Assembly (NCBI GenBank): GCA_015178975.1
Contig: WHVD01000007.1
Location: 744,001-808,000 of the forward strand
DNA: 64,000 bases
From: Hysterangium stoloniferum
Lineage: Eukaryota > Basidiomycota > Agaricomycetes > Hysterangiales > Hysterangiaceae
Reading direction: 5' to 3'
Shown here piece after piece: positions 29,749-58,317 of this stretch. The notes below the pieces were generated by a model. That model did not search any database. It saw only the letters and a program-made list of their open reading frames with translations, and had not been told where the DNA came from. Position numbers and translations under genes: made by a program. Within the stretch, counting starts at the first letter, position 1, and the number at the start of each line of letters is the position of its first letter.

Positions 29749-30058
29749 ATTGATAGGATACAATTTATCCATTATGACGTGATACCTTTATTAAAAATAG
29801 TGTGAGTTGGCTTATTGTAATACACAATCAACAAGGTGGTAATAGTCTTGTAATATAAGTATTTATGTCTCAATCAATGTGTCAGTTAGTGAATCACCTT
29901 TTGACATAGTAGGTAGGATGCTAGTTTAGGTGTACACTGGTTCTGGCATGCATTAACCTCCAAAAACATGGTCCACTATTAGCATCCTCCTATGAAAAAG
30001 TTAAGAAATAGGTGAACTGCCCCTAAGAAAAGGGTGGTTTCATCACCAATTCCAACAA
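29749..30058 (-). mobile_element. Probable solo LTR in A6
   Basis: On the minus strand the block begins TGTTGGAATTGGTGATG and ends near CTATCAATA, the ends expected for a copia LTR. It replaces part of exon 4. No clean target duplication is visible, so the boundaries are approximate. Confidence 0.5.
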
Positions 30059-30600: not shown

Positions 30601-32639
30601 TTTGATAACACTGACACAATTTATCCTAACCAGGAGGAGGGATAGCAGTATTACTCTTGACATAACTCTCCTTTTGGAAATATCGACAAGGAATTTAAAG
30701 TTATATAGTTTGAGCCAATTTAAGAGCGCATATAACAATTTTGTACCATCTTTTCATGCTTGGCAGCTTTTGTTGATGCTATACTCACCTTGTATATATT
30801 CCTGGGCCCTAGTAGTCGCAAGAATCAGATCCAATTTATCACCGAGAATCACTTCAAATAGAATGCCACTCGGAGGTCTCAAAGAAAGCAGCATTTCAGT
30901 TAAGATAACATTGAAAAACACCAAAGACCACCCGCAACAATCACTCCCTACTCGAGGGCGACGATTATCTTGGTCAGTTTCATCTAGTATTCAAAACATA
31001 TATTCAATATCCTTATTCGCCGTCATGAGGGACAAAGCTCTGGAATAAAAGAAGGGGGCCGTACAAGGTACACGGACGGCGTTAGGCGGATTTCATAAAG
31101 TATTTTTCTCCGCTCGAAACCTTGAGCCGATGGGTGAGCGCCTCGCTCCCATGGGATCCTACTTGAAACAGGCACAATCGATAATATTCCAAAGAAGGCC
31201 AAATGAGCACCCGAAAGCACTTTGAGACCGGTTACAGCTATAACTGATGCTTAGCGATACAGGAGAATTGAAAGGAATTTAGATGCCATGACGACTTGAT
31301 GGCAAACGGTTCTAAATTAAATATCACAAACCCTGCAGGGAAACACACATTTTATAACCGACATTCTGTGACCGTGGCTTGCAGATCCTTCATCATAAGT
31401 GTATTTGATTTTTGTCGGGTAAGACCCATCAAGGTTCTCCAATACGGTTTTCCGATGGATCGTTCTGAGACGACCATCGCGCGAGGGGAATAGAACCACA
31501 ATTGAAAAATCGATCGTTGAGTGTTTAATACTTAGTCTCGTTCTTAACAACTCTAACAAATTTAGATGACTCCATGAGGGTAATGTTAACAACCACTTCT
31601 TAATAAATTCAATGTCGACACTCACTCATATCCGTCCTGGTGGTCGAGAAAGCCACCACGCTGGTGACCAAACACCCATTAAGGGAGGTATTCCTCTTCT
31701 TTTCCCGGAGTCATTGGTGAATTTAAACTCTCGTATGATCTAATGGCATCAGCTGTGGAGGCACCTCTGGTCAACCTGCTCCGCTGAAATCCCAGGAGCC
31801 ACTCTTTAATTGTCAAATATGTAAATACACACTACGGGTCAGGCACGTCAAGTTATATACCCAGCCGTCAATATCTCAACTTTCCCGTAAAAAATCTATG
31901 TAATTATCCTCTACTCCACATACACCAGCGATCTTCAAAGCATTAAAATATATTTACTTCGAAAACATATTAAAAGAATTAGCGCGATCGAGAAATGAAA
32001 ATAAAAGAGATAAGTCACGCGGGGAAGATATTATATATGGCTTTTGCATCATGAACTGTGAAGGTCCAGCGGGGGAAACAGGGAGCATAACCATCACAAA
32101 TCCAATCATATCAGGGCTTCCATAGCGATCGATGTCCAGGCTGCTGGTAGAAGACAGGTGACTTCAACCTGGCAACGGCGGGAGCGTAGCACTGACATTG
32201 ATGTGACTACTGTTCAACGTGTTTGAGTGAAAATGGGCGGGGGGACGAAAGGCATGAGGTGCTGCATTTGTGTGGGGTGAGCGCCGGCCGCGGCTTCCCA
32301 TCTTGCGTAGAAGTCAGGATCGTGACGAGGAGACGCCAAGAGTATTGCTAGTCAGGATTGATGATAGCTTTGCATTGCACGTGTACTTGCCGGTCGCCAC
32401 AGGATGACTAGTGAAAGTAAAAGAAGACCAATTGCAGCTTGTTATCACTATCCTCGTATGAAGAGGGGTGGAGGTCTAATGGTTGGGTCTAATGGGTAAA
32501 AACTCTGGTGGACTGGCCCTAAGGAAGAATGTTCAGGCTTGAGCGCAATTAGCCTAAATCAAGAATTATGGAAATGGATTCGTTGGTATTCTAAGAGTAT
32601 TGAAAACGAACGGTATATTTCGGTTCGATATAGTTTGGA
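30601..32639 (+). other. 3' flank of A6 and 5' flank of A7
   Basis: Same order of conserved blocks as elsewhere: AACCAGGAGGAGGGATAG near 30629, the ATAAAGTATTTTTCTCC block near 31092, GACCAAACACCCATTAAG near 31666, then the 5' flank near 32520-32640. A long open frame (30326-31048) is exon 5 read on into this flank. Confidence 0.5.
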
Positions 32640-33545
32640 GAGAAAGGAAGGTAATGACACTGGAATAAGGAAAGTAATCCGAGGGAAGCTTCGAGAATGA
32701 TGCAGCTGTCCCGAACGTGGGTACGGTTTATGTTACCGGGAACCTGAAGACGTGGAGGTTTGGAGAGATGGGTGCGTAAAACGAAATATCCTTTTTACGT
32801 ACACTATTCACAGACCGGATATTGTCAGTGCCAATGAGAGAGAAATTGACACCACCCGACGATTGTTAAGATGCGAGGTAAACCCAGTCACACGACATCC
32901 AACCTCAGTCCACTTGAAAGACATGACATAGACTGGGGAGCGGTCTCGTTATACGACAGCTCATCTTCAAGTATTGAAATTGGCCCACGATATTACTGTG
33001 GAGTCGGTTCGCAAAGGGTTGGGATGAAAGTCTTTAAAACGCAAAGAAACTTCGCTTATGGAAAAATTGACGATAAACGAGTGAATTGCTCATGGAGCAT
33101 GACTAGACCAGAAGGTCATTCACAAGTTTCTACGGAGGTCTCTCACACTTTCAAGACTTGGAATACTAATTCAAAATACAATTGATTAATGAGGTAGGGA
33201 TACAATAGCGTTAATTATTGAATACACTTGAAATCCTCACGTGTCTAGACCCATAAACCCGCTTCGAGTTCGACGACAGGGGTCAATGGTCTTATGGGGG
33301 TTCTGGTATTTAGTTGATATACAACGGAGGAGCCAAAGTGACACTGCCAAGCTCGTGGAATCTTTCACTTAGGCTTTCTTATGGCGCCCAGCGCTCGATG
33401 GTCAGATGTAGATCGGCCCTCAACTGAAATTACGCCATCGCTTTATAACACTGTAATCAAATCACCGCTACACCAACGTGGATGAGGTTGAATCGACATT
33501 TATTCTACAAATCGCCGGATATTTATCATCCTCCATGTGATGTAG
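32640..33545 (+). pseudogene. Family A copy A7, degraded remnant
   Basis: Pieces of exon 1 (about 32645-32790), exon 2 (32871-33200, with DIDWGAVSLYDSSS) and exon 3 (about 33245-33540, ending YLSS-like) are present with many small gains and losses. Exons 4 and 5 are absent. The next unit's 5' flank follows at about 33600. Confidence 0.65.
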
Positions 33546-33907: not shown

Positions 33908-34945
33908 ATGTCAAATTCGGACGAGATAACTCGGATCAGGGAGGATATCATATCCCTCTTACGAGAGTTTGAGTGGCTACAGCCCTTGGTTTCCCCGCCT
34001 GTATCGAGTTTGGAACGACAAATGATCAACGACACGAGAATGAGGAAAATATTCCACATGAAGCTTTCAAAACGATGTAGCTGCCTCGAACATGGGCATT
34101 GTGTATATTCCCGAGTACCCCATGACGACCGGCACATACCACTGGCTGAAGACGTGGAAGTTCGTGTGGAAGAATGGGTGCGTCAAGCGAAATGTCCTTG
34201 TTATGTACACTGTTCACAGACCAGATGTTTTCAGTGTCGAGGGGAGAAATTGCGATGACTCACCAAACAATATTAAGATACGAGGGAGACCCACCAACTC
34301 CACATACACACTTAGTCCATCTCCTAGCCATGACATAGACTGGGGAGTAGTCTCATTGCCAGATAGCTCCTCTCCAATTGGCCCTGTGTATTACTGTGTA
34401 GTCGGTTGAGAATAAAGTGTTTTACAGCGTGCGCAATGAAAGCTTCCCTGGTGAAAGGTTGATGATATACAAGCGAATGACGCGTGGACCTTGGGAAGGC
34501 CAGAACGTCATTGACAGGTTTCTACTCAAGTATCTCACGGTGCCAAGACTGGGTCTAGTAATTCAAGACTAATGATTTGATCAGGTAGGGATACAATAGC
34601 GTCAATCATTAGAAAATACTTACGTCTTTCTAGACCCACCTATCCCCCTCGAATTCGAAAACAGGCGTCAATGTTCTTAGAGGGGCTCTGGGATTCAAGT
34701 CACGTATGGAAGAGAAACGAAGGACACGCTGCCAAGCTCATGGCAATTTGGGTTTTGCCTTCATTTGGTGTCCCGGCGATCAACTGCAATTACGCCATCA
34801 TTTTAAAATGCTGTAATGAAATCACCGCTACACACCAACGTAGATGAGTTTTGCATCCACATTTATCACACAGATGACACAATGTTTGTCATGTGATCAC
34901 CATCGCTCACTGCCAGGATTAACAATATCGTGAAAAATATCTGCA
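33908..34945 (+). pseudogene. Family A copy A8, truncated in exon 3
   Basis: The start is CCACCAATG. Exon 1 reads SLLREFEWLQPLVSP and CSCLEHGHCVYSRVP and ends near 34180; exon 2 holds DIDWGVVSLPDSSS. The frame is broken before the end of exon 2. Exon 3 stops at about 34945 at the same place as A12 (49514) and joins the same foreign segment, so A8 and A12 are duplicates of one already truncated copy. Confidence 0.75.
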
Positions 34946-35272
34946 ATGTCACAAGGCTATTATATTTGTCCAGGATGCGTGGATTCGGGCTTATCTTCAC
35001 ATGAAATTTGATTGCTTTGAGGTGTTGTTCTCGGCCGTATTGGTATTTGTGGAGCTGATCCCATTCGTGGTTTAATTCTTGAAGCCGACCTGATGAGGCC
35101 TACGAACTTTAGACATATCATGAAGAGACCTCTGAATCGCCAAGAATCGTGCAATGGTCGGTCAGAGATGGGAAAGGTGTTGCGTGTTTGTGGTAATAGT
35201 AGCACATACTAAAAGTGGTTCTGTTTAAACTAAAGAAAAGACTGTTCGAATTGAAGACTTATCACTACAATG
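34946..35272 (+). repeat. Junction segment shared with 49515-49957
   Basis: From TTATATTTGTCCAGGA to GAAGACTTATCACTACAATG the two segments are near copies; the second is longer by several blocks. Both link a truncated plus-strand copy to an inverted minus-strand copy. Part of it resembles the A-unit 3' flank (CTTGTTTGCGG, AAGAAAAGACTG). Confidence 0.75.
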
Positions 35273-36194
35273 ACATACCTTAGGAGGGGCTCAATAAGGG
35301 AAGAAACCCCATTGAGCTGGTTGATATGATCAGTGCGAAGCATGCTGCTGTGGAAGAAGGTTTCTAGGGAGCAGATACGGATCAAAAGTGAATAGGACAC
35401 GCCCTCATCGAGATGAAGTGTCAATGACGCTATATGGAGTTTTGTGTCGTCCATTATAACCTGCAATACATCTCCAGCAATATATCGAAACCAGGCATCT
35501 TGGTGCATGCACCACACATGAGAAGCCATATGGGAAAGCCATACAAGGCAGGTCGGGATGGGTAAGTTTGTCTGTTGTGGTTTCGTGGGCAGGATGACAT
35601 GATACAATGTTGTGGGGCCATAGACTATAAGTCATCTTAAGATTCTGTGTATTAACTGATGGAAATGGGTCAGTATATAGGGAGCTCACACAGATGTGAT
35701 TCCTGAGATTCTTAGGATAGATACATAGGATGTAATATGCAGATTATAGCAGTATTCACACAGAGGTGATTCTTAAGATTCTGGGTGTACATATACAAAC
35801 CATGATATACAGACTATATGGGTATTCACACTGAGGTGATTCTTAAGATTCTGGGTGTACATACACAAACCATGATATACAGACTATATGGGTACCCACA
35901 CTGAGGTGATTCTTAAGATTCCTGGGGTAAATACCTCCTACATGCTATGCAGAAAATGGATGTACTCACACAGAAGTGATTCTTGAGATTTTTAGGGTAG
36001 ATACATACACAGCAAGTGATATACAGATTATAAGATAATTCACAAAGGTATGTAATTCTTGAGATTCTTAATGTACATACACAGAACATGATATACAGAT
36101 TATATGGGTGTCTAGATTCTCAAGATTCCTAAGGTGAATCAAATACAGCTGATCTGGAGATATTTAGGCAAATACATAGAGTAAAGCCTTATGG

Positions 36195-36610
36195 GAATTA
36201 GGGGATTGGGGGGATTAGAGGAGGATTAGGAGGATTAGGGGGATTAGGGGGATTGGGAGGATTGGGGAGATTGGGGGGATTGGGGGGATTGGGAGGATTG
36301 GGGGATTGGGAGGATTGGGGGGATTGGGAGGATTGGGGGGATTGGGAGAATTAGGAGTGTCTACACTGAAGTGATTCTCATGATTCCTAAGGTAAATCAA
36401 ATACAGCTTATCTGGAGATCTTTAAGCAAATACATAGAGTAAAGCCTCATGGGAGTTTGGAGGATTGGGGAGATTGGGAAGATTGGGGGAATTGAGGGGA
36501 TTGGGGGGATTGGGAGGATTGGGGGATTGGAGGGATTGGAGGGATTGGGGGATTGGGAGGATTGGGGAGATTGGGGAGACTGAGGAGATTTGGGGGATTG
36601 GGAGGATCAG
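36195..36610. repeat. FB2 G-rich 9-bp arrays, left arm
   Basis: Two GGGGATTGG-type arrays (about 36195-36355 and 36455-36605) lie either side of a spacer. This is the duplicated-arm layout seen in the right arm of FB1. Confidence 0.85.
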
Positions 36611-36611
36611 A

Positions 36612-36815
36612 GAGATTGGAGGAATTGGAGAGAGTTGAGGAATTGGAGAGAGTTGAGGAATTGGAGAGAGTTGAGGAATTGGAGAGAGTTGAGGAATTGG
36701 AGAGAGTTGAGGAATTGGAGAGAGTTGAGGAATTGGAGAGAGTTGAGGAATTGGAGAGAATTGGAGAGAGTTGAGGAATTGGAGAGAGTTGAGGAATTGG
36801 AGAGAGTTGAGGAAT
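36612..36815. repeat. 18-bp tandem array expanded in FB2
   Basis: About eleven copies of GAGGAATTGGAGAGAGTT. FB1 has essentially one copy at the matching place (near 15785-15810 and 18510-18535). The frame encoding EELERV repeats follows from the 18-bp period and is not a gene. Confidence 0.9.
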
Positions 36816-38744
36816 AATTCAACTCAATCCTAAACTTAAACCCTCTATCCAACTCCTTGATATATTTCCCTCCATCTCCCTTCCAATACTCCCATCCCAA
36901 TGTCCTCAATCACTCTCACAATACCTCCAATATCTCTTCTAATGCCTTCCATCTCTCTCTCCATATACCTCTAATTCTCCTGCCAATACCTCCAATGTCT
37001 CTCCCAATACTCCCAACCTCTCTCCCAATACCCCCTGTTTATTTTCTCTGAGATTTATAGAGAGTTTCAAATAGGGTCTCATTATTTTTCTCTATAACAA
37101 ATAGCATTACTACCAATTAAAATTTAGTATGCTAATGTAACAAATAGACTAAGTTGTGAATAATGTACCGTAGTCCACATGATGGGGAAAATTGACTGAG
37201 GTACATATGAAATATTAAAAGGGGGTAATCATAGGAAAAAAAAACAATTGAAGTAAAGATTAAGTGGTGGTAAGATGTGGAATAAAGGAAGGTTGATAAA
37301 TGATGTGATACATGATCAAGAGTTTTCTTATTATTCTCAGGGACACTCCAACTCCACCACTCTCTCAGGTACATTTAAATGTCAGTTCACAACAAGTTCA
37401 CATGTGGCTGCACACAGCTGTGGTTTTTTCTCTCTCAGTACTCAATCTATTAGCTGTTTGCATCTCCTGCAGATATTAGTTCTACACTGTTCAACTGGTC
37501 TGGCTGTAGAACTACTACACCATTGAAACAGTTCTAAATAAATGAACATGTCATACAAGTAAGGAAGAAATGTTATTCCACTGGAAACAAGGTTTGCCTT
37601 GCACTAACACTTTTTATATATTATCCTACTGCCACAAAGACTATAAAGATCATGACTGGAATTCTGAATTATTGTAATGGAGTATACCAGAAGTGCTCTA
37701 TAAGCCAATGAAACATATATCAAGAGAAGGAAATATCATTCTAATAGTAATAGGAATTTATCTTACTACAATAGTTTACATATATTCTACACAACTAAAG
37801 AGAATGGTGATAACCATTATAAGATTATGATACAGATCATCACAAAAATGATATTGTTTATAACAGAACCTTCTGCACATTCATTCCTCAGATAGCAATT
37901 ATTCTAGCTGTTATGCAGTTGCTATTTGAGTCACATTGGTAGCAATTTTTAGTTTGGCTGTGCTTTGCCATGTTTCAACAGTGCAGTTGAATAGTGTAGG
38001 ACTAATATCTGTTGCAAATAAAAACAGCTAATAGATTGAGTGATAAGGGGGAATAAACCACTACTTTATGCAAACCACATGTAAAGTACATATACATTTG
38101 GAGAATAATGGAAAGAGAAGAATAATGAGAGTCTATTACCACCTCATAGTGTATGGTGTGTCACTACCTTATACATTCTGGGTATTCAAACATTAACTGC
38201 TTTTAGTGAAACTTCTAGATGTATAATGCATTTGATACTAAGGAGGACAGAGGAACAGAACAGATGTCACTAAGGATGTTGAGTATACAGTGGGATACTA
38301 TGAGCATAATGGAACAGATAGAATTATGTATGCAATTGGTGAAATGTGGATAGACATGATTACACATTACAGTGTTATTGACATGGAAGTATTGGGAGGA
38401 AATTAGAAGTCTGGGAGGATATTGAGAGTGTTGGAAGGGAGGTTGGGGTATTAGGAGAGAGGTTGGGATATTAGGAGGGTGGTTGGGGTATTAGGAGGGA
38501 GGTTAGACATTGGAAAAGAGGTTGGAGGTACTGGCAGCGAGAGATAGAAGGCATTAGAAGAGGTATTGAGGTATTGGAAGTTGATTGAATGGTTTGGAAG
38601 GCATTAGAAGAGATATTGAAAATATTGGGAGAGTGATTGAGGATATTGGGATGGGAGTATTGGGAGAGAGATGGAGGGAAATATATCAAGGAGTTGGACA
38701 GAGGAATTAGGTTTAGGATTGAGTTGAATTATTCCTCAACTCTC

Positions 38745-39910: not shown

Positions 39911-40529
39911 TATAATCTGCATATTAAATCCTATGTATCTACCCTAAGAATCTCAGGAATCACATCTGTGTGAGCTCCCTATATACTGACCCATTTCCAT
40001 CAGTTAATACACAGAATCTTAAGATGTTTTATTGACATGTGGTGTGTCGCGACGCACTGTTGTAACCAGAATTCAATGGCACCTCTGATCGCAGTGAGCT
40101 CTTCGACAGATAGTTGATGCAATTCATATATGTTTTGCACGATATACACAAGTTCGTCGGCGAGGAAGGGATATTGATGGCATGACAAGTATCGTGCAAT
40201 TTTTAGAATAAATGTTGACGCAACCTCGTCCACGTTGGTGTGTAACGGTTATTTCATTACAGCATTTTAAAGGGATGACGTAATTGCAGTTGGTGCTTGA
40301 TCTCTATGTCCCAATTGAGCACCAAGACACCAGTAGAAGGCCGAACCCACATATACGACAAGGTTGGCATTGTGACCTCCGTTTCTCCACTGTACAACCC
40401 TTGAATTCCAGAACCCCTCTGAGACCACCGACGCCTGTTCTTGAATTCGAGCCGGTTAAGTGGGTCTAGAAAAACGTGAGTATTTTGAGCTTGTTGAATG
40501 ATGGCCTCAAAGTATCCCCACCTCATTAA

Positions 40530-41204
40530 GGAGGGTGTTTATAATTACTATAATCTCAAATATTTACTAATAAAAGTTTTATTTTTACAAAACTTCATCT
40601 TTAAATAGTGATATCTATTCTGAAACAATTATATCATCAAAAAACAACCATCAGAAATAGTTCTCCATATTACATCTTATACAACCCATAGTTATTTAAC
40701 AAATTCTATTGTATATAATTTCCTTCCTTTTACAGATGTCTACTAATACTTTTATTAGTACTTTGTCTTTTAAAAGCTGTAATGTAGTTATTTCCTAGTA
40801 AAATATATGAGATGTCATTGGAAATTTTTCATCCTATGGCCTTCTTTATTAAGTGAAATTACCTATATATTCTGGGTATGTTGAATGAAGTAGAAATCTG
40901 TTCAGATTGACAGATCCATTCCGAAGTAATACATATGTATTTAGAGGTGCCAATGATATACATATGCATGGAATGGACTATCTAAAGGTATCTACTTTTT
41001 AAAAGTATTAGTGTTTCAAACTACTAATTTATTTTATTGTCTACTCGTGTCTGGAAAGATTCTTTAGTTTGTAATGTATGAGAGAGTTTAAAACTTTTTG
41101 AAAGTTTTAAAAACCAAATTATGTTTGAATCACATCCCAGATGTTTAAATGACCTTTAGAGTATATTAGAATTTGGTATACTTAATAGTTTTCAGATATC
41201 CTCC
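40530..41204. mobile_element. MITE-like element, 675 bp, copy 2 (in A9)
   Basis: Same ends and same length as the copy at 14287-14961, with scattered single-base differences. It is flanked by TAA on both sides (40527-40529, 41205-41207). A13 has the empty site near 51270-51285, where TAA occurs once. It sits in exon 2 codons of A9. Confidence 0.88.
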
Positions 41205-41952
41205 TAAGTCAATGGTCTCTTGAATTACTATTCCGAGTCTTGGCAGAGTGAGATGCTTGTGTAGGAACTTGTTACAGGCCTTGTCGTCTCCATACACCAT
41301 TCACTTGTATATCATCAACTTTGCCATCAGTGTAGCTGTCTTCGCAGTGTAAAGCACATTCCTCCCAACCCTTTCCAAACCGACTCTACAGTAATGCCCC
41401 AGCTCAATAGTAATACTTGAGGATGTCGATGAGCTCTCATACAGTGAGACCACTCCCCAGTCCACGTCATGACTGTCATGTGGGCTGAGGTTGGATGCGG
41501 CATTGGTGCATCTACCTCACATATTAATACTCGTCGGTGGATAATGACAAGTTGTCTTTCCCAGCCACTGAAAGCGTCCAGTTTTTCAACAGCGTACATG
41601 AAAGGCTATCTCAGCACCCATTCCTCAACCCAAACTTCCACATCGTGTTCAGACAGTGGTATATGCTGGTCGTCTTCGTGAATTCGATAACACACACCGT
41701 CCCGACTCCCCATGTTCTACACACCTCCATCGGCCTCGAAGCTTCATCCGCATTCTTTCCCTTATCGCTGCGTCAATGATCTCCTGCCGTTGGTCTGAGC
41801 TCAATGCAGTTGGGGAGACTAGCGGTTGTAACCACTCAACCTCTTGTAGGAGGTTTCGAGCGCGTACCATATCATCGCTGCTCAGAGTCGTGTCCTTTGA
41901 AGTTGACATTGGTGGGTAGCAGGTTGCTGTGATACCAGGAGGGGAGTCAGCG

Positions 41953-43891
41953 CTTAGGTTGGAACGACAGGGGATTGATGACACGGGAATGAGGGAAAGA
42001 TCCGGGGCGAAGCTTCTAGAGGGATGTAGCTGTCCCGAACTTGGGCACTGATTATGTTACCGAGACCACCATGACGAATAGCATATACCACTGTCTGAAG
42101 AAGACGTGGATGTTTGTGTGGTGGAATGGGTGCGCACAAAGAAATATCCTTTTATGGACACTCTTCACAGGCCGGATGTTTTCAGTCCCAAGGAGAGAGA
42201 AATTGCCATGACCCACTGCATAATAGTAGGATACGAGGGAGATCCACCAACGCCATATTCAAACTCAGTCCATATCCCAGAGGTGGTATAGACTGGGGAG
42301 GCATCTCATCTCGGAATAGCTCATATTCAAGTGTTGAAATTAGCCCAGGGTATTACTGTGGAGTTGGTTTGGAAAGGTTGGGATGAGAGTACTTTGCAGC
42401 GCAAAGACAACTTCGCTGATGATAAAGTTGATGATATACGAGTGAATGACGCGCGCACCATGGGAAAGCCAGACTGTCGTTGTTACGTTTCTGCCCAACT
42501 ATTGCACTCTGCGATGGCTGGGAATAATAATTCAAGAAACCATTGATTTATTGATGTAGGGATACAACAGCGTCAATCAGCAAATAGATTCAAAATACTC
42601 ATGGCCTTCTAGCCCCACTGGCCCCCCTCGAATTCGAGAACAGGCGTGGACGTGTGGATCATGGGAATGCCAGAACGTCGTTGAGAAGTTTCTATTCAGG
42701 CATTTCAAACTGGCAAGACTGATGGATAAAACAGTGTCAATCAGGGAATACACTCACAATACTCATGCCTTTGTAAACCCTCTTATCCGCCTCGAATAGG
42801 CCTCAGTGGTCTTAGCGGGGATGTGGTATTCAGGTGTTATAAGGCAGAGGAACGAAGGTCACAGTGCCCAGCTTATGGCATAGATGGCTTGGGCCTTCAA
42901 TTTGTGTCCCGGCGCTCGATGGTCGGCGATCAACCGCAATTACATCAACACTTTACAATGCTGTCATCAAATCACCGCTACACACCAACCTGGATGAGGT
43001 TGGGTCGACATTTATTCAACAAACTTCCAGATATTTATCGTCCCTTTGTGAACTTCCCGTCCTCCTCGGTTACCTTGTGCGTATTGTGAAAAACATTTGC
43101 CACGTGCGTGACCTGTCTGTAGTGGAGCTCACTGATATCAGAGGTAATATTGAATTCTGGTTACAACCGTGAGTCGTGACATCACATCATTCATTCACCC
43201 CACCAAAACCACCACAGACACCATTACCCACACCCACATTGCTCGTATGAATCATCTATACAGCTTCTCGTGTGTTGCATCCACTAAGATAAATGGTTTC
43301 GAGATATTGCTGGAGATGTATTGATGGTTGTAGTGGAAGACACAAACCTCCATATAACCTCCTTGACTCTTCATATCGATGCGGACACAACGTATTCACT
43401 GCGTCATGATAGCGGGGCACTGACAACCTTCTTTGATGACAGCACCCTTCTCACGAATCATATCAACCATCTGAATGTGGTTTCTTCACTCATTCAGCCC
43501 CTCCTATGGTATGTCGAGAATGTTCTACCTTTCCCCATCATCTCATATCTGCTCACAACAATATCCTACCAGTCTGATTCTGATGTAGATGAGTGCAAAT
43601 GTGTGCCTTCTCTGGTCAGGCGAAAAATAAATCGAGGTTACTCTGAAGCTGATTGCCGCATCTTCAGACATCGAATCAGCGTGTTCCACAATGTGGAACC
43701 TCAATATAATCCCGTTTCTTTCACATTGTGACGCAATGCGTGGCTCAATCAACGATCAATACGTCGGTACCTACCTGGAAAGAATAACCGTCGCAGCTCA
43801 TTCCCTCCTTTCTGCCATCATCACACCTTCAACAGGTGTGTGGGCAAAATCTAATTCAAACTCCAGATCAGTGTTGGAGAACCATGACTAG
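41953..43891 (+). pseudogene. Family A copy A10, 5'-truncated with an internal partial duplication
   Basis: Begins partway through exon 1, head to head with A9 after only about 43 bp. Exon 2 (about 42160-42560) has DWGGISSRNSS and a GTAGGG donor near 42556. After the start of exon 3 (about 42617) the sequence jumps back to the end of exon 2 and repeats intron 2 before exon 3 restarts near 42780. Exon 3 (ITSTLYNAVIKSPLHTNLDEV), exon 4 (43321-43510) and exon 5, ending VLENHD at 43891, are recognisable. No start codon or promoter remains. Confidence 0.75.
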
Positions 43892-45424
43892 CCTGCCCAT
43901 GCTTTTGTTCCATCCATTCCGCACGATATACAATAATGTCCCTTGGATAACACCGACACATTACCCGAGACAGGAGGAAGGATAGTGCTATTACTTTTTA
44001 CTTAATCCACCTTTGGCAATATTTCAAAGTTCTTTAAAGCTACATAATGTTGGCCAATTAAAGAGCGCATATAGTCACCTTTTCTGCTTTGTAGCTTATT
44101 TCTGATCCTATCCACACATAGTTGCATATAGTCGTGGTCCCTAGTAGGGGCTAGAACCACATGCGATTTACGAAAAAGAACTAACGTCAAATGGAATATC
44201 GTCGGAGTTCTCAAAGAAAGCAGCGCGATAGTTTGGGATTGGACGAAACAAGTTATTGGAGAACAACAAAGAACACTGGCTACAATAACGCATAAATCCA
44301 TGCCGACGATTCGCTCGTTCAAGCTCATCTTGCGATCAAAATCCAATGTTCAATCTCCAAATCCGCGTTCTTGAGGCAAAAAACTCCGGAGTAAACTGAG
44401 GGGCCTTCAAAGCACACGGGGACAACATGGGTCAGATTTCATAACGCATGTCTCTCTCTATTATCTGTCTTTTCCCACCCTGTAGCGTCTCCTCCCCTTG
44501 GGTTCAGATTTGAAAAATACAATCATATTTCTCAAATTGTTCCTACTAAGACATCCCATAGAAAGAGAAATGTACCCCCAGGTAGCACTACGGGAGAACT
44601 GGGAGGAATGTAAATACCATCCATCACTTTCTACAAATGTTCCTAATTTGGACCGGCATAATGTATAGTTGATGCTTGGCAATACAGGAGAAGTGCAAGG
44701 AATCTAGATGTCATGACCACTTGATCACAAACGGTGGTAAATTAGCCAAACAAAACCTGTCGGAAGACACCTGTATACTCTGTGACCGCAGCTGCAATAT
44801 CTTTGATGACAAGTGTAGTTGATTGGTGGTCCGAAAATTCTTGAGGGTGGGAAATGAAGAGGAAGAAGCACTAAGGACACAGGATCTTTTGAAGAAGATG
44901 AAGCATCTGTAAATTGGTATTTGATCCGGACGGTAGGGAAGTCCCGGCAATCTAGAATGCGCCCGAACTGAAATACCTTGGAGCATCCCAGATAGCCGGA
45001 CTTCCTCACAGCGCTTAAAACCATTTTACTCATGCATTCACGATCGACGCCAATTCGCCTGGTTAAAGAATTATCGAAGTTGCAATTCAGAATGAATTGA
45101 AAACGAAGCGCACATGTCTCTTAGACATAGCCCGAATCGAGAGCGCCCGAGGCTGTACCTGACAAGCATTGTAATGGATAGCATCCACTGCATTTACGTA
45201 TTTTATCAATCGACATGTCACTTCTCAACTAACGTAAAAGCTGAATTGCCCAAAACTCTAACGCTCAAGAAGCCGGAAGTGACCACAACGTATCGCGGCT
45301 GCCACATGTGCGCTTTGCCGTAGGCGATCTGTTGAAGAGTAAGAAATTAGACTCTAAAATATTGAGTGAACCTGAGAGTAACGTGGAGGTGTATGCATTA
45401 AGGAGGTTGAGCGGCTTCAAGTTG
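43892..45424 (+). other. 3' flank of A10 and start of the 5' flank of A11
   Basis: Inverse counterpart of 62450-64000. The stretch 44461-44640 (CTGTCTTTTCCCACCCTG onward) occurs only here and at 63640-63830 reversed. The left copy keeps the empty site (ATCCA, about 44619-44623) of the solo LTR at 63372-63648. Minus-strand frames at 44711-45033 resemble those in other 3' flanks. Confidence 0.6.
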
Positions 45425-45432: not shown

Positions 45433-45564
45433 GAAGGGAGGAAACGCTGGGTGTCCAACATGAAGCACCGCCACAATGCTATACCTTGAAATTCATACCC
45501 CTGATAATTGCAACTTAATAGCCCAGCATCCCATTTCGGTATCACAATAACCTGCCACACATCA

Positions 45565-47534
45565 ATGTCGACTCCAAACGAAACTGCTCTGAGTAGCCAC
45601 GATATCGTACAGGCTGAAAGCCCCCTACAAGAGGTTGAGTGGCTACAACCCTTGGTCTCCCCAGCTGCAATGGGCTCAGAAGAACGGGAGGGGGTGGTTG
45701 ACGCGGCGATAAGGGAAAGATTCCGGGGCAAGCTTCGAGACCGATGGAGCTGTATCGAACACGGGCACGGTGTGTGTTATCGAGTTCCCGAAGACGACCA
45801 GCATATACCATTGTCGGTAGAAGATGTGGAATTTTGGGCTGAGGAATGGGTGCGCAAAATGGGATAACCTTTAATGTATACCGTTTACAAACCCGACGCT
45901 TTCAGTTCCTAGGAGAGACAAATTGTCATGATCCACCGAATTTTATTAAAGTGCGAGGTAGATCCACCAACGCCACATCCAACCTCAGTCCATATTACAG
46001 TCACAACGTGGACTGGGGAGTGGTCTCACTGTATGATACCTCATCGACATCGTCAAGCATTAACATTGAGCCGGGGTATTACTGTAGGGTCGGTTTGGAA
46101 AGGGTTGGGAGGAAAGTGCTTTACACTGCAAAGATAGCTGCACTGATGGCAAAGTTGATGATATACGAGCGAATGGTGTATGGATACGACGAGGACTGTA
46201 ACAAGTTCCTACGCAAACACCGCACTATGCCAAGACTCGGAATAGTAATTCAAGAAACCATTGACTTAATGAGGTGGGGATACTTCAGCGCCAATAATTT
46301 AATACAGTCAAAATACTCACGGCTTTCTAGACCCACTTATCCGGATCGAATTCAAAGACGGGCGGAGAGGGTCCTAGATGCGTTCTGGTATTCAAGGCTT
46401 ATACACCGGAGGAACGGAGGAGACACTGCCAGGCTTCTGACAACTTTGGCTTGGGCCTTCTCCACGTGTTCCTGCGCTCCATGGGCAGATGTAAATCGGC
46501 GACTCGGATTAACTCCAATGACGTCTTCGCTTTACAATGCTGTCATCAAATCACCGCTACACACCAACGTGGATACGGTTGCGTCGACATTCCTTCTACG
46601 AATCGCTGGGTATCTATCATCCCCATGCAATCCACCTCCCTTCATCCTCGGCGCCAACCTTGCGCGTATCGTGGAAAATATTTGCCACGTGCGTCAATTG
46701 TCTGCAGAGGAGCTCACTGCGATCAGAGGTTGCATTGAATTCTGGGTACAACCGTGCGTCGCGACATCATATCATTTTATCCTGCCCACAAAAACCATAA
46801 CAGAGAAAATTTCCTACACCGACAAACCTATAATAAATCTCCTGTCCGCCTTCTCGCGTGTTGCATCCACCAAGATGCCGGGTTTCGTGATATTTCTGGA
46901 GATTTATTGAAGATGATAATTGATGACACAAACCTCCACATAGCGTCCTTGACTCTTATTATGGATGAGGACACAACGATTGCATTGCAGCGTGGTATCC
47001 TGGCTCTGAAAGTCTTCTTAAACGACAGCACGCTGCGCGCGGATCACATCAACCAGTTGAATGTGATTTCTTCGCTCATTGAACCCGTCGTACGGTATGT
47101 TGACAATGTTTTACCTTCCAGCATCATCTCATATCCACCCATGAAAATATCCTACCAGTCTGATTCTGACACACAAGCGTCCAAATTACTGGCTCCTCTC
47201 TTCAGGCGAAGAACTACTTCACGTCACCCTGAAGCTGATAGCTGGATCTTCCAACTTCGAATCCGCGTGTACCACAGTGCGCAACCTCGATATGATTGCC
47301 ATTCTCGAACGTCTTCTCCCACATTGTGACCCAATGTGTGGCTCCATCAACGATCAATCCCCCCATAATCCCTTTGAGAGATTACACCTCATGTGTCATT
47401 CCCTCCTTTCCGTCATCGCCACACCCTTTACCGGCGTGTCAGTAGCCCCTACCTCTAACTGGATGTCTGCGTTAGAGGAAGATGCTTGGCCTGTCGATGC
47501 ATTTGCTCTACCCCTTCCACGCGATATATTCTAA
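45565..47534 (+). CDS. Family A protein A11, intact five-exon gene, function unknown
   Basis: Exons 45565-45849, 45906-46273, 46331-46753, 46804-47094 and 47159-47534 give 580 codons with no break. Introns are 56, 57, 50 and 64 nt and all end in AG. Exon 1 (residues 1-95) has the EVEWLQPLVSP block, then Cys63, His66, His68, Cys71 and His80. Exon 2 (96-217) has NCHDPP, DWGVVSLYD, KVLYTAK, LMIYERM and PRLGIVIQETIDLM. Exon 3 (to about 358) has SLYNAVIKSPLHTN and ICHVRQLSAEELTAIRGCIE. Exon 4 (to about 455) has CCIHQDAGFRDI, DDTNLHIASL and DHINQLNVISSL. Exon 5 has ELLHVTLKLIAGSS and ILERLLPHCD. The later exons look alpha-helical, perhaps repeat-like. There is no signal peptide, membrane segment, or transposase, nuclease or polymerase motif that I can recognise. 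Start chosen for the family-wide ATG context. Confidence 0.82.
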
Positions 47535-48477: not shown

Positions 48478-49514
48478 GTGTCAACTTCAAATGCGACCAC
48501 TCTGAGCAGCCACGATATCAGACGGGCTGAACGCCTCCTACAAGAGGTTGAGTGGCTGCAACCCTTGGTTTCACCGGCTATATTGAGTTTGGAACGCCAG
48601 GTGATCAATGACACGGGAATGAGGGAAAGATTCCGGATGAAGCTTGGAGAACCATGTAGCTGTCTCCAACACGTAGACTGTTTATGTTACCGAGCACCCG
48701 ATGACGACCAGCACATACCATCGTCTGAAGAAGACGTGGAAGGTTGGGTCGAGGAATGGGTGCGTAAGAGAAAATATTTTTCTGTACCCAGTGTACAGAC
48801 CGGATGTTTTCAGAGTCAAGGAGAGAGAACCGGCGATGACCCACCGAATCATATTAAGATACGAGGGAGATCCACAAACGCCACCTCCATATGGTCGGTA
48901 TAACATAGACATAGACTGGGAAGTCGTCTCATCACCAGATAGTTCGTCTCCAAGTGTACAAATTGGCCCCGGGTATTACTGTGGAGTCTGTTGGGAATAA
49001 AGTGCTTTGCAGCGCAAAGAAAGCTTCCCTGATGACAAGTTGATGACATACGACCGAATGACGCGTGGACCTTGGGAAGGCCAGAACGTCGTTGACAAGT
49101 GTCTACTCAGGTATCTCACAGTGCGAAGACTGGTAATCGTAATTCAAGAGACCATTTATTTGATGAGGTAGGGATACAACAGCATCAATCATTAAAAATC
49201 CTCACGTCTTTCTAGACCCACTCCCCCTCGAATTCGAAAACAGTCCAATTGTCATAGAAGTGCTCCGGGATTCAAGCTATTTATGGCAGAGGAGCGAAGG
49301 GCAGACTGCAAAGCTCATGGCAAATTTGGGTTTGCCTTCATTTGGTGTCCCGGCGATCACGTCATCGCTTTACAATGCTGTAATCAAATCACCGCTACAC
49401 ACGAACGTGGATGGGGTTGAATCGACATTTATCACACAGATCGCACGATGTTTGTCATCTGATCACCATCCCTTATCGCTGCCGGCATTAACAATATCGT
49501 GCAAAATATCTGCA
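48478..49514 (+). pseudogene. Family A copy A12, start codon lost and 3'-truncated
   Basis: The position of the family ATG reads GTG (48478-48480, CCCAGTGTCAAC). Exon 1 is otherwise open to EEW at about 48763 (RLLQEVEWLQPLVSP, CSCLQHVDCLCYRAP, DDDQHIP). Exon 2 has DIDWEVVSSPDSSS and then loses frame. Exon 3 ends at about 49514, at the same break as A8. Likely non-functional. Confidence 0.75.
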
Positions 49515-50069: not shown

Positions 50070-51921
50070 TTAAATAAGATCCTCTAACACTGATGTGGAG
50101 TTCAAATTAGAGGTCGCCAAAACACCAGTAAAAGGGGTGGCGATGACGCAAAGGAGGGAATGTGCCGTGATGTTTAAGTTAGGAAAGCGGGTACGGATAA
50201 ATGGATCGCCGAATGAACCACGTATTGCGTCACAATGTGGAAGGAGACCAGCCAGAATCGGGATTATATTGAGACTGCGCACTGTGGCACACGCGGATTC
50301 TATGTCGGCCGATGCAGCTATCAGGTTCAGAGTAACCTCAATTAGTTCCTCGCCTGCCCAGAAGAGCCAGTAATTTGGACTCGGATGTGTCAGAATCAGA
50401 CTAGTAGGATATTGAATGGGCGCATATGAGATCATGCTGGAAGGTAAAACATTGTCAACATACCTTAAAAGGGGCTCAATGAGCGAAGAAACCACATTGA
50501 GCTGGTTGATATGATCAGTGCGAAGCGTGGTGTTGTGGAAGAAGGCTTCTAGCGAGCAGATACGAATCAAAAGTGAATAGGACACGCCCTCATCGATATG
50601 AAGTGTCAATGACGCTATATGGAGTTTTGTGTCGTCCATGACAACCTGCAATACATCTCCAGCAATATCTCGAAACCAGGGATCTTGGTGCATGCAACAC
50701 ACGAGAAGCCATATGGGAAAGCCATACAAGGCAGGTCGGGATGGGTAAGTTTGTCTATTGTGGTTTTCGTGGACAGGATGACAGGATATAATGTCGCAGC
50801 GCACTGTTGTAACCAGAATTCAATGGCACCTCTGATCGCAGTGAGCTCCTCTGCAGATAGTTGACGCAATTCGTAGATGTTTTGCACGATATAAACAAGT
50901 TCGTCAGCGAGGAAGGGATATTGATTGGATGACAAGTATCGTGCAATTTTTAGGATAAATGTCGACGCAACCTCATCCACGTTCATGTGTAACGGTGATT
51001 TCATTACAGCATTGTAAAGCGATGACGTAATTGCAGTTGATACTCGATCTCTATGTCCCAATCGAGCGCCGGGACACCAGTAGAAGGCCGAACCCAAATA
51101 TACCATAAGGTTGGCGTTGTGACCTCCGTTCCTTCGCTGTACAGCCCTTGAGTTCCAGAACCCCTCTGAGACCACCGACGCCTGTTCTCGAATTCGAGCC
51201 GGGTAAGTGGGTCTAGCAAAACGTGAGTATTTTGAGTTTGTTGAATGATGGCCTCAAAGTATCCCCACCTCATTAAGTCAATGGTCTCTTGAATTACTAT
51301 TCCGAGTCTTGGCAGAGTGAGATTCTTGCGTAGGAACTTATTACAGGCCTTGTCGTCTCCATACACCATTCGCTTGTATATCATCAACTTTGCCATCAGT
51401 GCAGCTGTCTTTGCGGTGTAAAGCACATTCCTCCCAACCCTTTCCAAACCGAGTCTACAGTAATGCCCCAGCTCAATAGCAGTACTTGAAGATGTCGATG
51501 AGCTCTCATACAGTGAGACCACTCCCCAGTCCACGTCATGACTGTCATGTGGGCCGAGGCTGGATGTGGCATTGGTGGATCTACTTCGCATATTAATAAT
51601 CGTCGGTGGATCATGACAAGTGATCTCTCCTAGCCACTGAAAGCGTGCAGTTTTTTAACAGCGTACATGAAAGGCTATCTCATTTTACGCACCCATTGCT
51701 CAACCCAAACTTCCACGTCGTCTTCGGGAGCTCGATAACATACACCATCCCCATGTTCTATACAGGTCCATCGCTCTCGGAGCTTCATCCGCAATCTTTC
51801 CCTTATCCCCACGTGAATGATCTCCTCGCGTTCTTCTGAGCTCAATGCAGCTGGGAGACCAGAGGTTTCGAGCGCGTGCCATATCGTCGCTGCTCACAGT
51901 CGTTTCGTTTGAAGTTGACAT
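50070..51921 (-). pseudogene. Family A copy A13, exons 2-5 open, exon 1 frameshifted
   Basis: The start codon is complementary to 51919-51921. Exon 1 measures 229 nt instead of 285, a loss of 56 that is not a multiple of three, so the Cys/His block is out of frame. Exon 2 reads PPTIINMRSRSTNATSS and on to DLM. Exon 3 reads ITSSLYNAVMKSPLHMN, exon 4 CCMHQDPWFRDIAGDV, and exon 5 LILTHPSPNYWLFW then ELIEVTLNLIAAS, ending LEDLI. All four are open on the same intron pattern as A15. An alternative start downstream could yield a shortened protein; I have no evidence for it. Confidence 0.75.
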
Positions 51922-54017: not shown

Positions 54018-55250
54018 TTATATGTCATGGAGCAAGGCCTTCAACGGGCGAGCCATATTGTTCAACACTGATGTGGAGTTTGAATTAGACGTTACCGATA
54101 CGCCAGTGAAATGTGTGGCGATCACGCAAAGGAAGGAATGTACGATGTCATTTAAAAAATGTAGGCAGCTACTACAAAATTGATCGTTAATTGAGCGGCG
54201 CATTGTGTCACAATGTAGAAGGAAACGAGCGAGGATGGAGATAATATTGAGGTTGCGGACTGTGGTACACGCGGATTCGGTGTCGGAAGACCCAGCTATC
54301 AGCTTCAGGGTGACTTCGATTAGTCCCTTTCTAGACTCTAGGAGCGGCCAATTTGGCCAGGTGTGTGTCAGAGTCAGACTGGTAAGAGAGTTTAATGAGT
54401 GGGTGTGAGACGATGATGGTAAGTCAAATATTTCACAAATCCCGTAGAAGGGTGCCTCTCAACGAAGAAACTACATGAAGCTGGTTGATATGCTCCGTGC
54501 GAAGCGTGCTGTCCTCGAAGATGGTTTTCTGGGCCCAGATATAGCGCCACAGTGAATGTGAGGTGTCCGCATCGATATCTGAACGTGGTGAGCTCCTGGA
54601 CAGCTGACGAACATGGCAGATATTTTCCACGATATTGCTAAGGCCGGCAGCGAGCAAGGGATGGTGATGGGATGACAAACATCGTACGATCTGTATGATA
54701 AATGTTGATGCAACCTCATCCAAGTTGGTGTGTAGCGGTGATTTGATTAAAGTATTGTAAAGCGATGACGTAATTGCAGTCGATGTCCGATCTCTATCTG
54801 GCCATCGAGCGCCGGGACACCAATTGAAGGGCCAAGCCAAATATGTCATGAGCTGACCTTGGTTCGTCCAATGGATATCACTCGAATTCCAGAACCCCCT
54901 AATACCATTGACCCCTGTTGTCGAATTCGAGGCGCTGGGTCTAGAAGACGTAAGTACTGTGAGTGTATTCACTGATTGGCACTGTCTGATCCCTACTTCA
55001 TTACATCAACGCTCTCTTGAATTATTATTCCCAGTCGTGGTTGTGTGACATACCTGAGTAGAAACTTGTCAACGACGTTCTGGCCTTCCCATAGTTCACG
55101 CGTCATTCGCTCATATATCATCAACTTTGTCATCAGCGATGCTTTCTTTGCGCTGTAAAGGACTTTCATCCCAACCTGTACCCGCTCAAACTCTCATAGG
55201 AGGGATATGATATCCTGCCGGCTCAGAGTTATCTCGTTGGAGATTGACAT
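54018..55250 (-). pseudogene. Family A copy A14, internal deletion
   Basis: Exon 5 (54018-54370), exon 4 (partly lost), exon 3 (about 54570-54930, AWPFNWCPGARWPDRDRTSTAITSSLYNTLIKSPLHTN) and the end of exon 2 (55010-55170) are present. At about 55190 exon 2 joins directly to the first 60 bases of exon 1, whose start codon is complementary to 55248-55250. Most of the Cys/His region is therefore gone. Confidence 0.72.
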
Positions 55251-55299
55251 TGGTGGGTAGTAGTCATACTCATCCCGGAAGGGAATTCCCCGCCTTTAA

Positions 55300-55625
55300 G
55301 GTGTATTTAGACTGAGGTTGGATGTGGTGTTAGTGGATCTCCCATCCATCTTAATAATCGTCGGGGGGTGATGGCAATCTCTAACATTGGAACTGACTAC
55401 ATCCAGTCTATGAACAGTGTCCATAAAAAGGACAATGCGTTTCACTCACCCATTCCTCCATCAAACCACCACGACCTCTCCGGACAGTGGTATGTGCTGG
55501 TCGTCTTCAGGTGTTGGTAACATAAACCGTGCCCATGTTGGAGACAGCTTCATCTTTCTCGGGGCTTCACCCGGAATATTTTCCTCATTCCCGTGTGATT
55601 GACCGCCTGTCGTTCCAAACTATCT
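55300..55625 (-). pseudogene. Family A fragment (exon 2 start and exon 1 end)
   Basis: A separate minus-strand piece carries the RSTN-region of exon 2, intron 1 and the C-terminal part of exon 1. It has no start codon: it joins 5' flank sequence near 55620. It may be the segment displaced from A14 or part of another lost copy. Confidence 0.6.
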
Positions 55626-56384
55626 CCAACGGAAATATGCGCTTCGTGTTCAATTATGTCAGAATACCAACGAGAAATCTATTTCCATAATGCTTAATTT
55701 AGGTTAATTGGGGTAAACCTGGATATTCGTGTTTGTGGCTAGTCCATCAGAGTTTTTATCACCAGATAGTGCGTGTAATCTATATTCAGTCATAATTCAT
55801 TGAGGCCTTGTCTTATTACCCTGTCCTGCTGAGTACCATTAATCGCCCTTGGCTCACGTTATGGCTCAGAGACTTGTCTGTTCGACACGACAATGTCAAG
55901 GCAGATCAAGGATTGTGGGTCATCGTAGCTTGATTCTAGGCGGAGTTCTTCATGTTTTTAAAGATTCAGTATCATCCCTATGCTTTGACATGCGCTTTCC
56001 ACCGGATTAGTGAGTGATTGTGGTGTGTGTTTTCTGCTGTTCTTCAATGACTTGCTTCATCCTATGCCAACTAACTCACACGCTGCTTTCTTTGAGACCC
56101 CCGGAGTAGTATCCAATTTGAGGTGACTCTAGTGGGTAGATCGGATGTCATTTCTAGCCACTACTAGGCTCCATGAACATATGCAGCGTATGTGTCCCAT
56201 CAACGAGAAGCTGCGAAGCACACAAAGGCGGTTAAAAGTGACTACATGCGCTCTGGAATTGGCTCAAACTATATAGCCTACATAAATTAGAAGTATTTCC
56301 ACAAGGTGAGTTAAGGAAAGAGTAATATTATTACCCTTCCTCCTGGTTCGCATAAGATGAGTCGGTGTTTTCCAAGAAACATTA
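55626..56384 (-). other. 5' flank remnant and 3' flank of A15
   Basis: Reversed 5' flank at 55626-55850 (ATATGCGCTTCGTGTTCAAT) followed by reversed 3' flank (CTTCAATGACTTGCTTCAT near 56042, TCCTGGTTCG near 56341). No gene is supported. Confidence 0.55.
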
Positions 56385-58317
56385 TTATATATGGTGCGGC
56401 GTGGATGGATCGGCAGGCCAGTCATGGTTTTCCAGCACTGATCTGGCGTTTTTAGATGTTACGCACACACCGGTGAAAGGTGTGGTGATGACACAAAGCA
56501 ATGAATGAGCTGCGAGGGTTACTCGTTCAAGGAGGTAACTGAAGTATTGATCATTGGTTGAGCGGCGCATTGCGTCACAATGTGGAAGAAGACGAGCAAG
56601 AATGGGGATGATATTCAGGCTGCGCATTGTGATACAGGCGGATTCGATGTCAGAAGAACCAGCTATCAGCTTCAGAGTGACCTCTATCAGGTCCTCGCCT
56701 GACATGAGGACCTTCGAATTTGGATTCGTGTGCGTCAGAATCAGACTAGTAAGGTATATTCATCATGGGTAGATATGAGATGATGCTGGAAGGTAAACCA
56801 TTCTCACCATACCTTAGGACGCGCTCAGTGAGCGAAGAAACCATATCCAGCTCCTTGATATGATCCATGCGAAGCGTCCTGTCGCCGAAGAAGGTGGTCA
56901 GGGCCCAGGAACCCTCCCACAGTACATATGATGTGTCCTCGTCGATATGGAGTGTCAATGAGGCGATAGTCATTTTCATATTATCCACCACAACTTTTAA
57001 TACATCTCCAGCAATATCTCGAAACCAGGCATCTTGGTGGATGCAACACACGAGAAGCTTTATAGGAGATCCAAGAAAGGAAAGTCCGTATGGGTAATTT
57101 TGTCTGTTATGGTTTTGGTGGGCAGGATGAAATGATGTGATGTTGCGACGCACGGTTGTACCCAGAATTCAATGCAACCTCTGATCACAGTGAGCTCCTC
57201 TACTGACAGTTGACGCATGTGGCTGATGTTTTCCACGATATACACAAGGTCCTGAACGAGGAGGGGATCTTGATGGCATGACAAATATCGTGCGATTTGT
57301 AGAACGAATGTCGACGCAACCTCATCCACGCTGGTGTGTAGCGGTGATTTGATGACAGCATTGTAGAGTGATGACGTCATTGCAGCAGGTGGCTGCTTCA
57401 CATCTTGCCATTGAACACCAAGACACCGGAAGAACCCACTCAACAACATCATCAGCCTTTCAGTGTGACGATCTTTGCTCCACGGTGTACAATTTCCAAA
57501 CAAGAAGAAAATTTCTACGACCATCCACGCCTGGTTTCGAATTCGAAGGGGATAAGTGGGTCTAGAAAGATGTGAGTATTTTGAGTGTATCCAATGATTC
57601 AGGCTGTTGTCTCCGTACCGCATTAAATCAATGCTCTCTTGAATTATTATTCCCAATCTTGGAAGTGTAATATACTTCTGTAGAGACTTGTTAAAGGCAT
57701 ATCTCCATGCTATTCGCTCGTATATCGTTAACTTTCCCATCAGCGAAACTCGCCTTGCGCTATAAAGCACTTTCATGCCAACCCTGTCCATTAAAACTCC
57801 TAAATAATACCCGGGGGTAATTTCAACACTCGAAGACGAGCTACCAGCCAGCGAAACCACTCCCCAGTCTACGTTATCATGACTGCGATATGGATTGCGG
57901 TTCGATGTCCTGTCAGTGGATCTACCTCGCATGTTTATAATAGCCGGTGGGTCATGACAATTACTCTCTCCTAGCCACTGAAAAGGTTTAGTTTGTTAAC
58001 AGTGTACTTGAAAGGCTAACTCATTTACGCACCCATTCCTCAACCCACACTTCCACATCTTGTTTAGACAGTGGTATATGCTGGCCATCTTCGGGTACTC
58101 TATAACACAATCCGTGCCCATGTTCGATACAGCTCCATCGGTCTCGAAGCCTTACCCTCAATCGTTCCCTTATCCCCGCGTCAATGATCTCTTCCCTTTC
58201 CTCTGAGCTCAATGCAGCTGGGGAGACCAGTGGTTGTAGCCACTCAACCTCTTGTAGGAGGCTTTCAGCCCGTAAGATATCGTGGCTGCTCGGAGTCGTC
58301 TCGTTTGAAGTGGACAT
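56385..58317 (-). CDS. Family A protein A15, intact five-exon gene, function unknown
   Basis: Read on the minus strand, exons 58317-58033, 57977-57619, 57561-57154, 57103-56813 and 56745-56385 give 567 codons without a break. Introns are 55, 57, 50 and 67 nt. Exon 1 has EVEWLQPLVSPAALSSEE and WSCIEHGHGLCYRVPEDG; exon 2 has NCHDPPAIINMRGRSTD and PRLGIIIQESIDLM; exon 3 has MTSSLYNAVIKSPLHTS and LSVEELTVIRGCIEFW; exon 4 has CCIHQDAWFRDIAGDVL and DHIKELDMVSSL; exon 5 has LIEVTLKLIAGSSDIESAC and ILARLLPHCDAMRRS. Compared with A11, exons 1 and 4 are the same length and exons 2, 3 and 5 differ by 9, 15 and 15 nt, all multiples of three. That argues for selection on the protein until recently. No known domain is recognised. 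The start is the family ATG in CCACCAATG context (reversed). Confidence 0.84.

Follow-up and report, generated by a model that had tools for sequence, protein, structure and literature searches.

The wtf drivers of fission yeast are multi-copy, multi-exon, fast-evolving genes with many pseudogenes. Fungal NOD-like receptors (NLRs) also form large repertoires: the review PMC10197012 puts their number in a basidiomycete genome at 83 on average, with Fibularhizoctonia holding the record at 602, and places predicted diversifying residues on the exposed faces of superstructure-forming repeats. The same review describes HET-domain allorecognition genes as multi-copy and often hypervariable (PMC10197012). 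Here we describe two intact five-exon genes, A11 and A15, in a 64,000-nucleotide stretch of the basidiomycete Hysterangium stoloniferum (assembly GCA_015178975.1, contig WHVD01000007.1, positions 744,001 to 808,000 of the forward strand; hereafter the window, numbered from its first letter). Both belong to a very large fungal family without a match in the protein libraries searched (Pfam, PDB, viral and bacterial/archaeal).

A11 lies on the (+) strand at 45565-47534 and reads through 580 codons without an internal stop. Its exon 1 (45565-45849) encodes the N-terminal part, in which C63, C71, Y72, R73 and H80 (A11 numbering) are invariant in 10 members and W91 is nearly so; it is followed by exon 2 (45906-46273, placed on the alignment of 41 copies described below), exon 3 (46331-46753), exon 4 (46804-47094) and exon 5 with the stop codon (47159-47534). 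The intervening introns of 56, 57, 50 and 64 nucleotides (nt) occupy 45850-45905 (GTGCGC..TCAG), 46274-46330 (GTGGGG..CTAG), 46754-46803 (GTGCGT..ACAG) and 47095-47158 (GTATGT..CCAG). A15, on the (-) strand from 58317 to 56385, is also intact, with 567 codons in five exons (58033-58317, 57619-57977, 57154-57561, 56813-57103 and, including the stop, 56385-56745) and introns of 55, 57, 50 and 67 nt; all four intron positions are common to the two genes. An earlier note, made from the letters of the window, had proposed two genes of five exons each, 580 and 567 codons long, whose four introns lie at identical positions, and its codon counts, ends and intron positions were all reproduced; the exon coordinates, which it lacked, are now set, with splice dinucleotides kept in 39-41 of 41 copies. 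The proximal 5' region of A11 (45450-45564) has a between-clade conservation of 0.54, compared with 0.29 in the distal upstream sequence, and is likely to comprise a promoter or 5' untranslated region.

We aligned A11 with 40 fetched 5-kb loci picked from the best protein matches. The donor GT of introns 1-4 was kept in 41, 40, 41 and 40 of the 41 copies, respectively, and the acceptor AG in 41, 41, 41 and 39. Distinct indel events were in multiples of three in 6 of 10 cases in exon 1, 11 of 12 in exon 2, 25 of 33 in exon 3, 13 of 18 in exon 4 and 12 of 29 in exon 5, and in 2 of 10 in intron 1, 1 of 2 in intron 3, 3 of 11 in intron 4, 8 of 40 in the 5' flank and 25 of 94 in the 3' flank. For exons 1 and 4, of which the protein query covered little, 19 of 28 distinct indels were codon-sized; the figure for introns 1 and 4 taken together with the flanks was 38 of 155 (Fisher p = 2.5e-5). 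Exon 5 was the weakest exon on this measure; its frame closes after an identical 98 codons in 15 of 20 loci (L009-L028). Intron 2 was the odd one among the introns, with five of six distinct indels in multiples of three; all but one of the 41 copies keep its length divisible by three. An in-frame stop lies inside it in 30 of the copies, A11 not among them, and the TAG and TGA common to many genome matches are explained by their falling inside this intron, as placed by eye on the alignment. A start codon, standard splice ends and a frame open to at least codon 521 were found in 28 of the 41 copies, a sample biased towards good copies. Splice sites, codon-sized exon indels, stop placement and constrained codons together speak against random open frames, and agree with the earlier note that this is a real family.

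Two of these introns have features of their own. In 11 of 41 copies, intron 2 has no in-frame stop while its length stays divisible by three, so that its retention would yield a slightly longer protein. Intron 3, with a length of 50 nt in all but two of the 41 copies, is unusually conserved, with a between-clade value of 0.82 compared with 0.42 for intron 1, 0.64 for introns 2 and 4 and 0.61-0.69 for the exons; an overlapping frame, a retained intron or an RNA element may account for it.

The family is much larger than the window alone had indicated to the earlier reader. A 301-residue piece of A11 had 134 matches in the genome (111 Mb, 554 contigs; 131 scored of 2426 first-look candidates), and a 25-base signature, allowing for two mismatches at most, had 489 places (231 + 258) versus 0 + 0 for the control, a count that includes broken copies. 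Grouping of the matches gave 17 copies or remnants in the window, with only A11 and A15 whole, in line with the many decayed copies around two intact ones that had been noted before; the grouping is our own, and the pairwise alignments are rough at copy ends. The 17 fall into five orientation runs, which is clustered (p = 0.025). Five relatives match the A11 region at 93-94% identity, four over 4.5-5 kb that include neighbouring family copies and one over 3 kb. The full 580-codon frame is kept in three of them (L039, L040 and L042); L043 runs to a stop at codon 521, and L041 is a broken copy. The proposal of an active or recently active family is thus supported in the sense of copying. Near copies are separated by 74-107 exon substitutions per 1743 nt, or by 8 in the pair L040-L042, and by no exon indels. 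On contig C388, two copies with shared flanks lie ~6.1 kb apart. Where the A11 unit seems to end, at 45036 and 47840, other copies of the same (C522) type run on, and no common termini were found among 12 5' ends and 17 3' ends of C522-type copies (the widespread clade was judged from alignment extents only). Given the orientation runs, the long regions shared by near copies, the spacing on C388 and the lack of shared ends, we take tandem and segmental duplication to be the likely way in which the family spread. The lack of shared termini among the C522-type copies inspected weakens a transposon with fixed ends as a candidate. For intron-less copies, a 16-mer spanning the exon 4-5 junction (this junction only, one mismatch) gave 2 matches versus 6 in the reversed control.

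Searches for relatives returned little. No Pfam model matched the exon pieces of A11, A15 and other members, and hmmscan of 10 spliced members against Pfam-A, at E values up to 10, gave just two weak matches, each in a single member (E = 0.14 and 0.18). These Pfam searches showed no ARM/HEAT profile, and no transposase, integrase or reverse transcriptase within the gene. Among PDB sequences nothing was better than E = 0.48. The absence of a recognised domain reported in the earlier note therefore held in both libraries, and the profile match to a common family that would have spoken against its reading did not appear in them. Viral contigs contained no relative, nor did a bacterial/archaeal collection by pattern search, and the titles brought up by literature searches included no account of the family. 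A viral source was rejected, with no relative in viral contigs and no viral fold neighbour (BFVD structure search with the exon 4-5 model described below, best E = 0.43). The exon 1-2 stretch may resemble motifs in unnamed agaricomycete proteins.

An AlphaFold2 model of exons 4-5 (230 residues of L023, read through intron 4) was all-helical, with a predicted local distance difference test (pLDDT) score of 75.8 and a predicted template-modelling (pTM) score of 0.71, although the underlying alignment is flawed in that the tail of the exon-4 rows is misplaced. In a Foldseek search of the PDB, the top four neighbours of this model were armadillo domains of HSF2BP/MEILB2, followed by CNOT9/Rcd-1, CIP2A and designed helical repeats. 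Exons 4-5 are thus predicted, with low to moderate confidence, to be helical with a weak armadillo resemblance. None of 28 open copies had a hydrophobic N-terminus, as judged by hydropathy only (19-residue windows starting in the first 25 residues, hydropathy > 1.6).

Selection was analysed in the 28 of 41 aligned rows with usable open frames, a set that does not include A15. Counting on the tree gave a ratio of non-synonymous to synonymous change (omega) of 0.69, with 53 of 542 codons showing a synonymous excess and 2 a non-synonymous excess (uncorrected p < 0.05). Hypervariable and conserved blocks alternate along the gene, and synonymous change is flatter; within the widespread clade, synonymous divergence is likewise higher in the variable parts. 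We fitted custom-written site models, with branch lengths fixed up to a scale, to three sets: 10 widespread copies, 5 near copies and 10 C522-type copies, with A11 in the last two. L023, which lacks a start codon, and L025, which has a non-standard acceptor, are among the selection rows but outside all three sets, and L043 was cut at its stop. Twice the log-likelihood difference (2dlnL) between M2a and M1a was 128.2 in the widespread set (14% of sites at omega 4.3), 42.7 in the near set (16% at omega 6.7) and 119.8 in the C522-type set (11% at omega 3.6), and refitting from several starts left the results nearly unchanged. When simulated without selection, the widespread set yielded 0.1-5.3 over 8 runs, the near set 0-2.1 over 4 runs and the C522-type set 0 in both of its 2 runs. 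With taxa reshuffled every 25 or 50 codons, the widespread set gave 4.4-32.3 (8 runs), and when rate changes were added to reshuffling at every 50 codons the values were 9.8-38.4 (5 runs, widespread), 3.1-18.8 (6 runs, near) and 37.2-77.8 (5 runs, C522-type). Extreme recombination thus inflates the statistic, most of all in the C522-type set, but no null or recombination simulation reached the observed value in any set.

The sites picked by these models recur and follow a pattern. With a posterior > 0.9 there were 29 sites in the widespread set, 25 in the C522-type set and 8-9 in the near set, and 8 were common to the first two compared with 1.3 expected (p = 1e-5). The 29 sites picked in the widespread set had an omega of 2.33 in six C522-type pairs, compared with 0.73 elsewhere. 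The mean posterior was highest in exon 3, and exon 4, which is helical in the model, also contains diversifying sites. Over residues 218-540, the two-clade mean posterior showed autocorrelation peaks at lags 3, 4 and 7 (z = 2.4, 3.2 and 3.3), and its power at 100 degrees exceeded that of all 1000 local shuffles. Codons picked out in this way include 230-277, 316-334, 366-374, 414-428, 466-474 and 527-530. The helical period alone could be obtained from constraint on a buried face; together with the class of sites at omega > 1, it suggests that the diversifying sites lie on one helix face. Among the near copies, exons were more variable than introns (p = 0.016). Recent gene conversion from a surviving donor was rejected for the variable stretch of A11 exon 4: four near copies match it at 90-93% and the other matches listed (40 of 280 candidates scored) at no more than 82%.

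From the observed gene structure, signature copy number, duplication and selection patterns and helical period, we infer, giving it about an even chance of being right, that the family encodes intracellular helical recognition proteins engaged in an arms race. Expressed members would yield products of ~530-610 residues, mainly alpha-helical and probably intracellular, in which exons 1-2 would supply a more conserved N-terminal part, the constant end of the recognition protein, and exons 3-5 a helical armadillo-like solenoid. On this view the arrays expand through tandem and segmental duplication and are eroded by mutation; in the surviving copies, diversifying selection would drive change in a set of codons on one helix face, with the remaining codons kept constant. 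The most likely job of such proteins would be to bind a changing partner, a molecule of non-self, parasite or selfish-element origin that they recognise within the cell. A bolder version, which we offer tentatively and regard as doubtful, is that the family represents a previously undescribed fungal intracellular recognition repertoire: stand-alone armadillo-like solenoids without a nucleotide-binding engine, comparable, when broken copies are counted too, with the largest NLR repertoires of fungi in raw copy number, and diversified through turnover of the arrays and selection on one helix face.

Several observations weigh against recognition. By Pfam, none of the 10 spliced members has a NACHT, NB-ARC, NOD, HET, kinase or other signalling domain, and 15 of the 17 window copies are broken. 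Structurally, the model of exons 1-3, built from L011 with introns 1 and 2 read through, was poor (pLDDT 51) and had no meaningful PDB match (best E = 0.38). For exons 4-5, no Foldseek match reached E <= 0.001 (best 0.042; armadillo TM 0.29-0.41, probability up to 0.97), and the list also takes in helical proteins of other kinds, CYRI-B, translin, 14-3-3 and nuclear-receptor domains among them. As 12 of the 28 open copies have one inner 19-residue stretch with hydropathy > 1.6, at scattered places, some members may have a membrane span. The selection signal also has soft points. In the reverse test, the 25 sites picked in the C522-type set had an omega of 0.99 in five widespread pairs compared with 0.68 elsewhere, a raised value that still does not exceed 1. 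Taken over the whole gene, omega comes to 0.95 and 0.86 in two sets, near or below 1, and to 1.37 in the near set, where it is not significantly above 1 (2dlnL 2.2). Among near copies, the amino-acid excess over the neutral share is borderline (121:31, p = 0.05), and exon variation does not exceed that of the flanks (p = 0.11). Finally, since reshuffled simulations reach 77.8 in the C522-type set, gene conversion could supply part of the signal.

The alternative that survives best is that these are selfish genes, a family of meiotic drivers or spore killers like wtf of Schizosaccharomyces pombe that is kept by drive and diverges fast because killers and antidotes must differ. The large copy number, the many dead copies around few intact ones and the fast divergence would all be expected of such a family. 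The inner hydrophobic stretch seen in 12 of 28 open copies points the same way, as does short repeat expansion: in L036, an otherwise open copy, exon 5 (L036:2957-3436) carries a 12-nt tandem expansion encoding (MRGS)n. However, no set of several membrane spans is evident and the hydrophobic maxima fall at differing places, whereas the selected sites track a helix face, more like a binding surface. We consider drive unlikely.

Array amplification combined with gene conversion could also have produced much of what we see as a by-product, a once normal gene now existing mostly as neutral duplicates, with intact copies that are simply young and mosaicism that mimics selection. The mostly broken state of the window copies fits this explanation, as do a whole-gene omega near 1 and the ability of simulated recombination alone to lift the site-model statistic to 78 in one set. 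It is harder to reconcile with codon-sized indels, splice sites and stops conserved across clades at ~50-55% protein identity, with constrained codons, or with observed statistics above all simulations and selected sites that recur between clades; moreover, among the matches listed, the variable exon 4 stretch of A11 has no close donor. On balance, a by-product of this kind seems rather improbable.

A passenger gene, spread by the transposon or other mobile element that carried it, would fit a signature that recurs hundreds of times, across many contigs and within repeat-rich DNA. This explanation is weakened, and we hold it to be quite improbable: the A11-unit ends continue in other C522-type copies, orientation is clustered, C388 shows a ~6 kb tandem spacing, and by Pfam the gene contains no transposase or integrase domain. 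Effector-like proteins acting on a plant or other host are very improbable, for although an expanded, diversifying family in repeat-rich surroundings appears to resemble effector compartments, the gene is long and intron-rich and no secretion-type N-terminus was seen in the 28 open copies, by hydropathy only.

The remaining family copies in the window were delimited by genome matches and pairwise alignment. The one closest to intact, on the (+) strand at 26646-28315, has exons 1-4 without frame breaks and a truncated exon 5. Decayed copies lie on the (+) strand at 20495-21256, 22625-24498, 28337-30588, 32632-33537, 33908-35028, 41920-43930 and 48478-49490, and on the (-) strand at 1210-2863, 50079-51921, 54021-55630 and 60575-62397; a further (-) strand copy (39940-41909) carries an insertion, and a (-) strand remnant at 35251-35570 is mainly exon 4. 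The decayed (+) strand copy at 6068-13763 is in two pieces (6068-6968 and 12673-13763), its exon 3 being split by a Ty1/copia-like element on the (-) strand (6927-12677). The long terminal repeat pieces of this element, at 6929-7351 and 12349-12672, are 91-93% identical, and a target duplication, GGTCA, is likely by eye. An inverted near-identical block, 17336-19686 / 35611-37985 (95%, 100% over 570 nt, and 96%), bounds ~16 kb containing family copies, with 9-nt tandem repeats alongside.

Elsewhere in the genome, open frames resembling a PIF/Harbinger-type transposase, as judged by eye, lie near a family copy on C547:200400-211400 (L054, L017, L055), ~8.7-9.4 kb in; the flanking open reading frames of two units were inspected by eye only. 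Other families present include KDZ transposase (71 matches), DUF6534 (21) and hydrophobin (18); the last two, along with introns of 50-67 nt, are signs of an agaricomycete. KDZ elements are described in mushrooms and rusts (PMC12730594). The ITS4-B pattern and a 5.8S-like pattern had no match each in the genome, so the assembly probably lacks ribosomal DNA. Telomere repeats had 11 matches, none on contig C522.

Collectively, one family with hundreds of copies and the marks of an arms race stands in this genome without a Pfam match. If it is a recognition repertoire, this fungus would have an immune-like gene set separate from HET genes and NLRs, and the site models would already have marked the codons likely to make contact with the partner. 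As a selfish, driver-like family, it would be of unusual size.

Comparison with known systems places it near several of them. HSF2BP/MEILB2, CNOT9 (Rcd-1) and CIP2A are all-alpha repeat proteins among the best neighbours of the exon 4-5 model, but at E values of 0.04-0.8, TM of 0.29-0.41 and 10-16% identity this is a weak fold likeness that does not imply descent. In description, the A11 family has in common with the wtf drivers multiple copies, multiple exons, fast evolution and many pseudogenes, although its protein is longer and lacks a clear series of membrane spans. HET-domain genes are likewise multi-copy and often hypervariable, whereas the A11 family has no HET domain by Pfam. Fungal NLRs combine NACHT or NB-ARC domains with WD40, TPR or ANK sensors in many architectures, in contrast to the one family here, which by Pfam has no nucleotide-binding, known effector or sensor-repeat domain. 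Because the defining domains were tested for and not found, we do not file the family as NLR or HET. It has a large repertoire in common with fungal NLRs and may share diversifying selection on the faces of repeats, and by this analogy its closest parallel would be the sensor part of fungal NLRs.
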